64,000 nt of DNA from an uncultured Verrucomicrobiota bacterium (lineage in GTDB: Bacteria > Verrucomicrobiota > Verrucomicrobiia > Limisphaerales > CAIQOK01): the NCBI GenBank assembly GCA_903873415.1, contig CAIQOK010000092.1, forward strand, positions 1-64,000. The letters are read 5' to 3'. A model generated the notes under the pieces. It did not search any database, had not been told where the DNA came from, and worked only from the letters and a program-made list of their open reading frames with translations. The translations under genes were made by a program, and so were the position numbers. Numbering within the stretch: the first letter of the stretch is position 1; the number at the start of each line of letters is the position of its first letter. Shown here piece by piece: positions 55,139 through 60,173 of the stretch.

Positions 55139-58100
55139 TTATTTTCCTGACTCGGCGGTGTTGCGGGTCCTTGGCTTGCCGGCCCGCAGAACCCGGAGCG
55201 AAAAGCCTCGCCCGTTTTCAAACGGCTCCACCCGAGCCTCCACTTCCAGCACCGGATACCGCACGGTGGCCAGACCATAACTCTGGTAGGTCCGGGCAAA
55301 AAGCTCCGTCGCCACTATGCCGCTCCAATCAGCCAGCGAAAGAAATTTCATCGGCTCACCCGTCGACTGATGGTGCGTGCGCTGCTCCACCACCAGACCA
55401 CAGACGGTCACAATCTGTCCGACAAATTCTCCAAGCCGGTTCACCGGACAATAGGTGTCCCAGGCAATATCCGCGAAAACCTCAAGCGGATGCCCGCTCA
55501 CGGGAAATCCGAACAGCTCCGTTTCCCACAGCAACCGCTCCTGATACGTGGGCTCGTGCAAGGACATTTGCGGCAGCGAAACTGGATCGACCGTAGGCAG
55601 CAGCCAACCCTGACCCGAAACAGCGTTTCCACCGCCGAGTTGCAAGAGTTGTTGCGCCTGCCAGAACTGGCGGGTCCGAGTCTCACCAAACCCGTCAAAA
55701 CCTCCGGCGCGGATCAGGGATTCCAAATCGCCACCTTCCGGAGCCACCCGCCGGAAAAAATCCGGCATTGAATCGAACGGCCCCACGGCACGCGCCTCCA
55801 GCATCACCTCCACCGTTCGTGCTGTCAGACCTTTGACCCGGGAGATCGGCACGCGAAGGACCCGACCATGCACGGCATAGGCCGGGCCCGGTTCGTTCAC
55901 CGAAGGGGGCAGGAATGACAATCCCAGCCGGTGGCATTCGAGCACATAGACCAGAGGATGATAGAAGCCCTTGCCATTTGTCAGCACGGCAGCCATGAAT
56001 TCCGCAGGGAAATAGTGTTTCAGCCATGCCGATTGATAGGCCTCGACGCCATAAGCCGTGCTGTGTGCTTTGCAGAAGGCATAGCCGGCAAAGCCGCTGA
56101 CCAGCTCCCAGACCTCGGCTGTCTTTTCCGGAGGGTGTCCGCGGGCGTGGGCGGATTGGAAAAATTCCAGCCGCAGTTCCTCAATCACTGCCCGCTTTTG
56201 TTTGGCAAGCGCGCGCCGCAGTAGATCGGCCCGGCCCGGCGCCATGCCGGCAAAGGCTTCGCAGACCTGGAGGATATGCTCCTCGTAGACCACCAGCCCA
56301 TAGGTGCTGCGCAGACACGACTCCAACGAAGGATGGGGATAGGTCACCGGCTCCAGCCCCTGATAACGACGGGTGAAGGCCTGCTTCTTGCCCTCGTTGG
56401 CAGCACCGGGCCTGATCACGCTGACGATGGCGATGATCCCGTCAATCTCCCGCACCCCGCACATCTGGCAGAGGCTCGTCATGGCCGGCGATTCGATGTG
56501 ATGCACCGCGCGGGCGCCGCCACCGGCAATCATCTCCCAGACGGCGGTATCCTGCCAGGGTTCGACCGCCTGCGGGTCTCCCAGCAACAGACGGCCTCCG
56601 GCTTTTTCCCGCGCGAAACAGCGTTCCAGGTCAACGATTATGCCCCGGTCGGCCAACATGTGTTTCACATCGCGCAACACGGCCAGACCGCCTTGGGCAA
56701 GAATATCCATCTTCACCAACCCCACCGCTTCCACGGCGTCCATGTCGAAATGAGTGGTGGGCAAACCCTTGTTGGAAATGAAGGTCGGGGTCAGCTCCTC
56801 CAGCGGCTGCCGCGACAACACCAGACCGCAGGGATGCATCTTGGGGTATCGGGGGACGCCGTCGAGCAGGGCGGCCATTTCCAGCGCCGTGCGGTAGGGT
56901 TCTTCGTCGATCGGGAGGTCGCGGTTTTCCGGGCTCGCACGCAGTTTCCCGCGCAAACCGGATTCACCCGACACCTCATCGGAGTTGCACCCGCCACCGA
57001 ACCCCCAGGGAAAATGATCGGTGAACCGCCGGACTTCGCGCTCGGCAACTCCGAGGACTTTGGCCGATTCCGCAAACGCGCTCCGGGCCTGGAAGGTGGA
57101 GAATCCGCCGACCACCGCACACTGCGCCGCACCGTATTTCCCGAACACGATCTTCACCACCTCATCCTTCGCATCATGCGCAAAATCAATGTCGATGTCC
57201 GGCAGCTTGTTCAGCGCCATGCGTTCGCGGTTGAGAAAACGACGGAAATAAAGTTCGAACCGGATCGGACAAACCCCGCTGATGCCAAGGGAGTAGCAAA
57301 CCAGCGAATCCGCTGCGCTGCCACGCGTGATCCATTCCAACCCGCGTCGCCGGCACTCCTGCAGCAGATCCCAGGTGATGAGAAAATAGTCTTCGTAGCC
57401 GACAGCGCCGATGATTCCCAGCTCCTCGTCCAACTGGGCGTGGACGGCAGGGAGTTGGGGTGGGCGGTAAAGACGTTGCGCCCCTTCCCAAGCCAATCGC
57501 CGTAGAAATGCGGTGGCCGTCGAACCGTCCGGCGTGCGGAATTCCGGGAACTGCGGTTTGCCCAAGGGCAGCTCAAAGCGGCAGCGCTCCGCAATCTCCT
57601 CCGTGTGCCTGAGCCATTCGGGATGCTCCCGGCACGCCGCAGCCATATCCAACGGCATGCGGAAATGAAACCGGCCACCCTCACGCTTGGCCGGATGCTT
57701 CTCTCCCAGCAGGGTGAGGGTATGGATGCTTTGCAGGATATCAAATTTCCGCCGGTCCTCCGGAGCGGCATAATGCACGGCGGGTGCCGCAATCCCGCGA
57801 AACTCCGTCACTTCATCCCGCGTCGTTATCAGGCTGTAGAATCGGCCCGGAAACAAGTCCGCCATGCGCATATCTCCGCTGACTGCAATCAAGCCACCGG
57901 TGAGGCCATCAAGCTCTTCGCGCCGGAATGGCGCTCGCTGCCGGGCTGCGACGGATGATTCCTCGCCGACATTGGCGAACCGCTCCGCATGGCGGGAGAG
58001 CAGCCGGCAGAGATTGGGATAACCCGAGGCTGATTCCACATGAAGCAGGAGCGGCTGGTCATCCACTGTCACCTCTACGCCCAAAATCGGTTGGATCCCC

Positions 58101-59506
58101 GCCTCCCGGGCGGCTTGGGTGAACTCCACCGCGCCGTGCAAGTTGCCGGTGTCCGTCAGCGCCACGGACTTCAAGCCGTGTTGCCTGGCCAATCCCACAA
58201 TGGCGGCAGGCGAAAGCGTGGAATCCAGAAACGAATAGTGACTGCGAACACGCAACGGCACATAGGATTGCACCTGCCCGGGCATAGCCCGGCGACGGAT
58301 TTGTGGCGGAGCCGGCTGTGACAAGGGCCGTGCGGCATCTTCGGGCCGATTCATCAGCAGAAAGTCGTGCCCTCGAAGTATTACTTCATGTCCCCGACTG
58401 CGGCGCAACTCGTCGATCACCCCAGCCAACCGCGACCGGGCTTCCTGCCGCTGAACGGATATTTCAAGCGGCAGCTCGCTGCGAAACCGGCCGTCGTAAA
58501 TCTGGGAGAGCTTCAACGAGACCAGGCGAAGGCTCACGCGCCGTTTCCAAGCCGCCCGCAGCAGAACGCGCAAACGCCCATACACCTCGGTTTCAAGATC
58601 CGTCGGCTCGCTCAAGCTTTCCCCCGCTTGGTCCTCGGCCATGTTGTTATAGCGCACCTTCACGGTCAGCGTGCGGATGCAGCGCCCCTCCTCGCGGACT
58701 TTGGAAAACAAGTTGTCCGCCATGCGCCGCAGCGTGGCTTCGGCATAATCCTCGTCCGTCAGGTCGGCCGCGAACGTCTCCTGCTGGCTGAAGGATTTTT
58801 GGGGTGTGCGGGCCGGGATCAACGGACGCTCATCAATGCCGCGGGCAAACTGGCGGATGCCCGCCGCCGCAGGACCAAGCAGCAGCCCGAGCAGATCCAG
58901 CGGGGTGGCGGCGACATGCGAGATGCGCGCCAGGCCGGCGGCATTGAGCCGCGCACTGGTTTTTGGACCGATACCCGGCAGCCACTGGTTTGGCAACGGC
59001 TGGAGAAAAGCCGCCTCGTCTCCGGGCGATACCGTCGTGAAGCCCGAGGGCTTGTTCAGTTTCGAAGCCACCGCGCTGACGAGCTTGCTGGTGGCGATGC
59101 CTTCGCTGACGTTGATTTTCAGCTTCTGCCCGATGGCATTGCGAATCGTCTGGGCAATCTCGACCGCCGGACGGCGCGCGGCCGAAAGGTCAAAATACCC
59201 CTCATCAATCGAAGTCTGCTCCACCTCCGGTGTGAAGTCGTAACAGTAGCCAAACATCCAGTTGGAAAACTGTTCGTAGCGCTCAAAATCGCCGGGCAAT
59301 ACGATCAGCTTCGGGCACAGCTTCCGGGCCCGGGCGGTGGGCATCGGCGTATAGATGCCGAATCGCCGCGCCTCATACGAGGCCGAGGCGATGATGCCGC
59401 GTTTCTCGCCGCCAACGGCGATGGGCCGGCCCCGCAATTTCGGGTCCGACGCCTGCTCGACCGCGGCGAAAAAAGCATCCGCATCCAGATGAACAATGGT
59501 CCGCAT
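55139..59506 (-). CDS. Fusion DNA polymerase: Y-family (DinB/Pol IV type) joined to C-family (DnaE type)
   Basis: One uninterrupted 1455-codon frame encodes two polymerases. Residues 1 to about 345 form a complete Y-family polymerase: HLDADAFFAAVE with D8, SIDEGYFDLS with D101/E102 (the Pol IV catalytic pair), a helix-hairpin-helix near 174-190 (WLPGIGPKTSARLNAAG), and a little-finger domain (TLTVKVRYNNM, VSLRLVSLKLS). A charged linker (about 360-412, ending SQPAPPQIRRRAMPGQVQ) leads into a PHP domain (about 415-640, first ligands lost as in many DnaE), then the DnaE palm/fingers with PDIDIDF (D770, D772), VKMD (D934), a tandem HhH near 1219-1238, QMSLH at 1313-1317 in the place of the E. coli clamp-binding QADMF, and an OB fold (1361-1440). 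The gene starts 3 bases after lexA. Confidence 0.93.
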   Translation of the reverse strand: MRTIVHLDADAFFAAVEQASDPKLRGRPIAVGGEKRGIIASASYEARRFGIYTPMPTARARKLCPKLIVLPGDFERYEQFSNWMFGYCYDFTPEVEQTSIDEGYFDLSAARRPAVEIAQTIRNAIGQKLKINVSEGIATSKLVSAVASKLNKPSGFTTVSPGDEAAFLQPLPNQWLPGIGPKTSARLNAAGLARISHVAATPLDLLGLLLGPAAAGIRQFARGIDERPLIPARTPQKSFSQQETFAADLTDEDYAEATLRRMADNLFSKVREEGRCIRTLTVKVRYNNMAEDQAGESLSEPTDLETEVYGRLRVLLRAAWKRRVSLRLVSLKLSQIYDGRFRSELPLEISVQRQEARSRLAGVIDELRRSRGHEVILRGHDFLLMNRPEDAARPLSQPAPPQIRRRAMPGQVQSYVPLRVRSHYSFLDSTLSPAAIVGLARQHGLKSVALTDTGNLHGAVEFTQAAREAGIQPILGVEVTVDDQPLLLHVESASGYPNLCRLLSRHAERFANVGEESSVAARQRAPFRREELDGLTGGLIAVSGDMRMADLFPGRFYSLITTRDEVTEFRGIAAPAVHYAAPEDRRKFDILQSIHTLTLLGEKHPAKREGGRFHFRMPLDMAAACREHPEWLRHTEEIAERCRFELPLGKPQFPEFRTPDGSTATAFLRRLAWEGAQRLYRPPQLPAVHAQLDEELGIIGAVGYEDYFLITWDLLQECRRRGLEWITRGSAADSLVCYSLGISGVCPIRFELYFRRFLNRERMALNKLPDIDIDFAHDAKDEVVKIVFGKYGAAQCAVVGGFSTFQARSAFAESAKVLGVAEREVRRFTDHFPWGFGGGCNSDEVSGESGLRGKLRASPENRDLPIDEEPYRTALEMAALLDGVPRYPKMHPCGLVLSRQPLEELTPTFISNKGLPTTHFDMDAVEAVGLVKMDILAQGGLAVLRDVKHMLADRGIIVDLERCFAREKAGGRLLLGDPQAVEPWQDTAVWEMIAGGGARAVHHIESPAMTSLCQMCGVREIDGIIAIVSVIRPGAANEGKKQAFTRRYQGLEPVTYPHPSLESCLRSTYGLVVYEEHILQVCEAFAGMAPGRADLLRRALAKQKRAVIEELRLEFFQSAHARGHPPEKTAEVWELVSGFAGYAFCKAHSTAYGVEAYQSAWLKHYFPAEFMAAVLTNGKGFYHPLVYVLECHRLGLSFLPPSVNEPGPAYAVHGRVLRVPISRVKGLTARTVEVMLEARAVGPFDSMPDFFRRVAPEGGDLESLIRAGGFDGFGETRTRQFWQAQQLLQLGGGNAVSGQGWLLPTVDPVSLPQMSLHEPTYQERLLWETELFGFPVSGHPLEVFADIAWDTYCPVNRLGEFVGQIVTVCGLVVEQRTHHQSTGEPMKFLSLADWSGIVATELFARTYQSYGLATVRYPVLEVEARVEPFENGRGFSLRVLRAGKPRTRNTAESGK

Positions 59507-59509
59507 GGT

Positions 59510-60133
59510 TCATTCCCGCGCCTTTCGGATCAGCCCCCGGAACACCCCCTGAATCATGAGTTCCTCGGACGGGATCAGGTCCGGGTATTTGGGGTTTTCC
59601 GCCTTGAGGAAGGGGCGGTGGTTTTTCAGCAGAAAGGTTTTGAGCGTGCTTTTCCGGTCGATCAGCGCCGCCACAATCTGCCCGTGCCTCGGTTCGGGAC
59701 CATGCTCCAGAATCACAATGTCGCCGGAGCAGATATGCCGGCCGATCATCGAATCGCCCGTCACCCGCAGGGCGAAGGTGTTGCGGGTCGGACTAAATCC
59801 GATCGTGGCGACATCCACCGAAACGCAGCCCTCGGGATCCGATTCCCGGTCGTCACCGAAGCCGGCCGGGATGGAGCCGAAGAGGGGGATATCCACGACG
59901 TGTTGGCGCAGCTTCTGCAGCGGATTGGTCGGGCGCAGCGACCGGGCCTTGCCGGGGGTGGATTCCAGAAAGCCTTTGTGCTTGAGGGCCTCCAGATGGC
60001 AGGCCGCCGCCCGGTGCGCCCGGAATCCGAAGTGCGCCGCGATCTCACGCAGGGTGGGACCTGGGCGCCCCGCCTGGTTCTCCGCCTGTAGAAACTCCAA
60101 CACCTTTTTTTGAATCTGGGTCAATCCGGTCAT
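59510..60133 (-). CDS. lexA: LexA repressor, short HTH variant, SOS regulator
   Basis: The 207-residue repressor has a winged-helix DNA-binding domain (HTH about residues 26-48, PTLREIAAHFGFRAHRAAAC), the self-cleavage site Ala90-Gly91 in GSIPAGFG, and the Ser128/Lys165 dyad in TGDSMIG and STLKTF. The 37-residue Ser-Lys spacing equals that of E. coli LexA. An in-frame ATG at 60145 lies inside the operator palindrome and would add four residues; the promoter places the likely transcript start close to the ATG at 60133, so that start is preferred. It heads a two-gene operon with the fusion polymerase and is divergent from der. Confidence 0.93.
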   Translation of the reverse strand: MTGLTQIQKKVLEFLQAENQAGRPGPTLREIAAHFGFRAHRAAACHLEALKHKGFLESTPGKARSLRPTNPLQKLRQHVVDIPLFGSIPAGFGDDRESDPEGCVSVDVATIGFSPTRNTFALRVTGDSMIGRHICSGDIVILEHGPEPRHGQIVAALIDRKSTLKTFLLKNHRPFLKAENPKYPDLIPSEELMIQGVFRGLIRKARE

Positions 60134-60134
60134 A

Positions 60135-60152
60135 ACTATCCACATGGATAGT
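60135..60152. promoter_or_regulatory. LexA operator (SOS box), 18-bp palindrome
   Basis: The minus-strand sequence ACTATCCATGTGGATAGT is a perfect 8+2+8 inverted repeat (60135-60152). It begins 2 bases upstream of the lexA ATG at 60133 and covers the -10 region of the promoter, as expected for autorepression. It is unlike the E. coli CTGT(N8)ACAG and Bacillus GAAC(N4)GTTC boxes. That LexA binds it is inferred from position. Confidence 0.75.
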
Positions 60153-60173
60153 ATTCAGACGCGGCGTTGTCAA
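60145..60173 (-). promoter_or_regulatory. Probable lexA-polymerase operon promoter
   Basis: TTGACA (60168-60173, minus strand) is followed after 17 bases by TATCCA (60145-60150). The -10 hexamer falls inside the LexA palindrome. The predicted transcription start would be a few bases before the ATG at 60133, so the mRNA is probably leaderless or nearly so. Confidence 0.65.

Follow-up and report, generated by a model that had tools for sequence, protein, structure and literature searches.

LexA systems beside mutagenesis genes

The SOS box of Escherichia coli is CTGT-N8-ACAG, and for Verrucomicrobia Erill et al. reportedly described in 2016 the LexA box TGTTC-N4-GAACA. The DNA considered here is a stretch of 64,000 nucleotides (the window) from a genome of the Limisphaerales (Verrucomicrobiota), whose close relatives belong to Limisphaerales/Pedosphaera. 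The initial annotation had called the box at its lexA start distinct from known SOS boxes; this is true of the letters (CTAT/ATAG, TATCC/GGATA) but not of the 18-bp frame, which is common to the E. coli and Verrucomicrobia boxes. The Verrucomicrobia box comes from the same phylum and has the same 18-bp frame as that of the window, and it was met here at cassettes in Verrucomicrobiaceae and in some Limisphaerales. However, the two boxes differ at core positions 4 and 6, with a corresponding difference in the recognition helix.

Regulators of this kind have also been described in other bacteria. For example, in Pseudomonas putida the LexA borne by the lexA2-imuA-imuB-imuC cassette controls its own mutagenesis operon, as is proposed here; in that bacterium lexA2 defines a second regulon, distinct from that of the global LexA1, which coexists with it (PMC5261740, PMC3901139). 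On the other hand, imuA, imuB and dnaE2 are separate genes in P. putida, whereas in the window's genome there is one LexA, and the polymerase is a single fused protein. The likeness to the lexA-imuA-imuB-dnaE2 order proposed in the initial annotation holds for the arrangement, but the operon contains only lexA and the fusion, imuA being absent, and the catalytic residues of the Y-family part are retained, in contrast to ImuB, which has been described as catalytically inactive (PMC6511836, PMC3901139). Lacking both ImuA and an inactive ImuB, the operon is not a member of the imuA-imuB-dnaE2 type. Another example is the lexA-imuY-imuB-C-dnaE2 cassette of Deinococcus, which, in the sections consulted, is likewise a mutagenesis cassette under LexA/RecA control; recA is induced there independently of LexA, comparable to a recA without the box in the window's genome, while imuY and dnaE2 are separate, ImuB-C stands alone, and those sections report no operator diversification (PMC8072749). 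Finally, excerpts of a 2021 paper describe SOS regulators of Bacteroidetes that, as in the window, lie beside error-prone polymerases and have diverged self-operators, the divergence being linked to paralogy; however, these proteins have a CI-like DNA-binding domain and are not LexA homologues, and the excerpts give no residue-level code (PMC8565304). The same excerpts count 17 LexA-binding motifs across bacteria and present the motif as extremely stable over broad groups (PMC8565304).

Three things are new in the present case: how much the operator changes within one group, the code that links it to the helix, and the difference from cassettes lacking the LexA DNA-binding domain. Within one phylum, and mostly one order, 38 half-sites have been matched residue by residue to the recognition helix, and an operator changing in step with the residues that read it is a natural record of a repressor altering its DNA target. 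These natural protein-operator pairs make it directly testable how and why LexA switches target, and supply LexA switches that are possibly orthogonal to one another.

The lexA-polymerase operon of the window

All features described below lie on the minus strand. The lexA gene (59510..60133; 207 aa from the ATG at 60133) encodes a protein scoring 134.5 bits against TIGR00498 in a profile search (cut-off 110.95), with PF01726 and PF00717 also above cut-off. The residues for self-cleavage are all present, namely the Ala-Gly site (PAG), the catalytic Ser (GDSM) and the Lys (LKTF), and the protein appears to be a LexA repressor with a complete predicted self-cleavage set. It has the single LexA DNA-binding domain detected by a search of the window's genome, and the codons of its recognition helix, residues 39-46 (A39 H40 R41 A42 A43 A44 C45 H46) counted from ATG 60133, are located at 59996..60019.

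The next gene (55139..59506) encodes a polymerase of 1455 aa in which a DinB (Y-family) and a DnaE (C-family) part are fused, with the Pfam domains IMS, IMS_C, PHP, DNA_pol3_alpha, finger and HHH. It follows lexA after 3 nt (59510 to 59506), just as the initial annotation had it, and both genes would form a single transcription unit. The Y-family part matches DNA polymerase IV models; the C-family part reaches 575 bits with the polc model, above cut-off, and 494.8 bits with the error-prone model PRK05672, below its cut-off of 939. Catalytic motifs are kept in both halves (DADAFFA, SIDE, PDIDIDF, MDIL), and judging by these both polymerase active sites look intact. A search of open papers for phrases denoting a DinB-DnaE fusion returned none, and the fusion is absent from the "fused/fusion" passages of two polymerase surveys. 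DinB-DnaE fusions are widespread in Verrucomicrobiota.

The operator, ACTATCCA-TG-TGGATAGT, is located at 60135..60152. Inverted-repeat analysis gives arms of 8 bp each (60135-60142 and 60145-60152) that are 100% complementary across a 2-nt spacer; the TG centre is not self-complementary, and therefore the operator is palindromic in 16 of its 18 bp. "Perfect 18-bp palindrome" was thus right for the arms and a slight overstatement for the whole. In the window the operator is single-copy at up to 3 mismatches, the chance expectation being 0.02. A -35 hexamer TTGACA (60168..60173) and a -10-like hexamer TATCCA (60145..60150), the latter inside the operator, are separated by 17 nt (60173-60168 to 60150-60145), as previously noted; the putative -10 would so be covered by the operator. 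The lexA ATG (60133-60131) abuts the palindrome as claimed, at a gap of 1 nt instead of 2. A second in-frame ATG is found within the operator, the longer ORF starting at 60145; ATG 60133 is likely the lexA start because relatives begin there too.

Operators in relatives: same frame, changed letters

The relatives examined comprise 97 draft genomes, and 89 lexA loci were compared. An 18-bp palindrome occupies the same place and frame at the lexA start in 66 of the 89 loci, and no clear palindrome was found at this start in the remaining 23; an operator was called with at least 6 of the 7 outer pairs, and several boxes have imperfect arms. Arms with all eight pairs occur at the lexA start in 35/89 loci versus none in windows of the same size placed 200 nt to either side, and in 55 of the 66 loci TTGAC precedes the operator by at most 26 nt (0-1 in shifted windows). 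The operator at the lexA start is confirmed as genuine. The start codon falls 0-2 nt past the operator in 47/66 loci, so that there is little space for a separate Shine-Dalgarno site; the term "near-leaderless" fits this geometry, and a transcript of that kind would follow from the spacing.

Within this constant frame the letters vary: 38 half-sites are found among 58 non-redundant loci, and positions 4-6 take 17 forms across the 66 loci. Parsimony requires 36 changes in core positions 4-6 when the tree is derived solely from the LexA C-terminal domain. The operator calling favoured an A...T frame, which affects positions 1-3 and 7-8 and not positions 4-6. The helix SHRAAACH of the window is associated with the half-site ACTATCCA, and among the relatives SKRAAECH is paired with ACTAGCCA, SSRAAADH with ACTACTCA, SKTAAACH with ACTGTCCA, SMTAAADH with ACTGTTCA, SMKAAVDH with ACTATTCA, SVKAAADH with ACTATACA, SSYAAACH with ACTGCTCA and SLTTVADH with ACCGTATA.

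A code between recognition helix and operator

Across the loci of the relatives, operator letters track LexA residues 40, 41, 42, 44 and 45. The highest covariation is that of operator position 4 with residue 41 (z 15.6), followed by position 6 with residue 40 (11.6), 3 with 42 (11.4) and 2 with 45 (10.4), which are the top four among 1600 operator-residue pairs; position 5 with residue 44 (8.7) is sixth. The permutation test ignores the tree, and columns of the C-terminal domain and an identity cut served as controls. The former, sharing the same ancestry, give a best z of 5.9 among 1024 pairs. With the latter, predicting from loci below 70% C-terminal identity, residue 41 predicts operator position 4 in 51 of 53 cases, against a majority baseline of 31/53: R or K at residue 41 goes with A, and T, N, Y or S mostly with G. 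A locus outside the data set, L261, provided an out-of-set test by chance, as it was fetched later; it has the helix SHRAAACH and carries ACTATCCAGGTGGATAGT, which is the window's box.

The residue numbering used here is that of E. coli LexA, in which S39, A42, E44 and E45 presumably also contact the operator, according to the published structure. For Asn41 such a contact has been described in the E. coli LexA-operator complex (PMC5999292). The covarying residues 40, 41, 42, 44 and 45 include base-contacting residues of E. coli LexA. The earlier reading of the palindrome as LexA's own operator is supported by its position and by this covariation, from which binding of the window's LexA to it is predicted.

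A palindrome that abuts a start codon could alternatively act mainly as an RNA hairpin or translational control element, and symmetric changes in its arms would fit a stem too. However, a stem does not predict letters that covary with LexA residues 40-45, a 2-nt loop is too short unless arm pairs open, and TTGAC lies at promoter distance. We regard the hairpin as highly improbable, and it was rejected on the covariation with the protein.

Cassettes without the LexA DNA-binding domain

A natural control for a LexA operator read by its own product is given by 15 loci (L163-L206, mostly Verrucomicrobiaceae) in which the protein before the fusion has no DNA-binding domain and is UmuD-like (S24 only). 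In 12 of these 15 cassettes ACTGTTC-N4-GAACAGT or a near copy is present, and in one Prosthecobacter genome three cassettes share an identical box. Their genomes encode LexA separately, with a single conserved helix (SQTAAMSH), and contain sites resembling TGTTC-N4-GAACA. The box is nearly constant in the domain-less cassettes and varied in the LexA-bearing ones, so it seems to be variable where the cassette encodes its own reader and stable where an outside LexA would read it. The UmuD-like S24 protein is a possible UmuD-type partner of the fused polymerase.

Regulon and proposed mechanism

When the window's genome was scanned with the window's box at up to 3 mismatches, five sites were found, namely lexA, C183:48188 and three within genes; such mismatch scans could miss weak or differently spaced sites. 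The weak sites in C67, C139 and C157 were dropped, being located inside genes. C183:48188 is a second strong copy of the operator, with 1 mismatch. The site (C183:48188-48205, equal to L131 19839-19856) is placed between a gene for a tyrosine (phage-type) integrase and an ORF with its start 12 nt downstream that is cut off by the contig end, in what seems to be a mobile element using the host's unusual LexA. The recA promoter of the window's genome showed no copy of the box, nor did the recA promoters read in other LexA-bearing genomes show their own boxes (best match 6-9 of 16 mismatches); scans of other genomes with their own boxes gave mostly lexA alone. A wider regulon, for which copies at recA or other SOS genes had been set as the test, is therefore not borne out by a scan that returned lexA, the integrase-linked site, three intragenic sites and none at recA; this counts against the regulon and not against the operator. 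With up to 1 mismatch ACTGTTC-N4-GAACAGT does not occur in the window's genome, and with up to 2 mismatches it has 4 sites versus 3 in the control, so nothing points to another, hidden LexA network. A canonical TGTTC-N4-GAACA network was rejected for this genome for want of an excess over the control. In another genome, G006, the same motif has 26 sites at up to 2 mismatches (2 in the control), and the LexA DNA-binding domain was not found there.

From operator, gene order, covariation code, the lack of sites at recA and the contrast with domain-less cassettes, all of them sequence-based, we consider it very probable that this LexA is a private, autoregulated repressor that mainly controls the mutagenesis cassette to which it belongs, with box and helix co-diverging. 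The palindrome would be bound by the LexA whose start codon follows it after 1 nt, and a LexA dimer over the -10 would repress one promoter for both lexA and the gene of the DinB-DnaE polymerase. On damaged DNA, RecA filaments would then promote self-cleavage of LexA and release the promoter, so that lexA and polymerase would be induced together; translesion synthesis would follow, and new LexA would restore repression. The steps of repression, cleavage and induction are those of general LexA biology; binding, the transcription start and a mutagenic role are, like these steps, what we infer for the window. In Limisphaerales, LexA would be a private regulator travelling with the cassette, with recA outside its regulon. 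Regulons shrunk to about one operon are the suggested cause of the target change: with few sites to change together, operator and recognition helix may co-diverge fast within one 18-bp frame.

Alternatively, the box might be the global SOS operator of the lineage, with a normal SOS regulon, a new motif and other sites too degenerate to be seen. LexA regulons elsewhere do include degenerate sites, and one more strong site exists at C183:48188. However, recA has no nearby site, three of the five sites at up to 3/16 mismatches are intragenic, and the LexA DNA-binding domain was not found in 46 of the 97 relatives, most of which have recA (RecA matches in 85/97). This explanation is unlikely, and we retain the private regulator.

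With the same anatomy, the divergence could also result from selection for insulation, mobile cassettes needing operators unbound by the resident LexA, as in phage immunity groups. Genomes with two or more LexA genes have different boxes (G094, L014/L078; G013, L018/L113; Spartobacteria CAIRYQ, L156/L195; G108, L133/L261) and the distribution is patchy, a same-genus genome (G001) being without the cassette; on the other hand, multi-copy genomes are few, transfer is not directly proven, and drift in a one-site regulon accounts for the same data. Insulation is a tentative explanation. It is conceivable, if somewhat doubtful, that the mutagenesis cassettes of Verrucomicrobiota are specificity groups, each cassette pairing a LexA of its own with a matching box under selection for orthogonality to the cassettes already resident; one cell could then hold several independently switched mutasomes.

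Distribution of the cassette

The LexA DNA-binding domain is present in 51/97 relatives, mostly once per genome; in G001 neither this domain nor the fusion was found. LexA and fusion occur together in 38 of the 97 genomes, with fusion only in 4, LexA only in 13 and neither in 42 (Fisher p 3e-11), in a table hand-counted from two outputs with the fusion taken as present at a best E of at most 1e-130. The DinB part is downstream in 70 of the 89 lexA loci, and many others reach a contig edge soon after lexA; some LexA genes are without the fusion, often on short or incomplete contigs. One genome, G076 (L065, L112, L114 and others), has seven LexA-domain matches with several different boxes and may be a mixed bin (4% contamination). 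In G040, whose own LexA box is ACTAGCCA, a weaker LexA-like site (L217 1501-1518, G040:C224:5188) precedes by 37 nt an ORF encoding a phage-integrase N-terminal domain, whereas for an extra site in G090 (L252) no gene lies clearly downstream. Finally, public records under the names Akkermansia muciniphila, Klebsiella pneumoniae or Acidobacteria bear the cassette (L139, L146, L151, L177, L201, L208) and are probably mislabelled bins.
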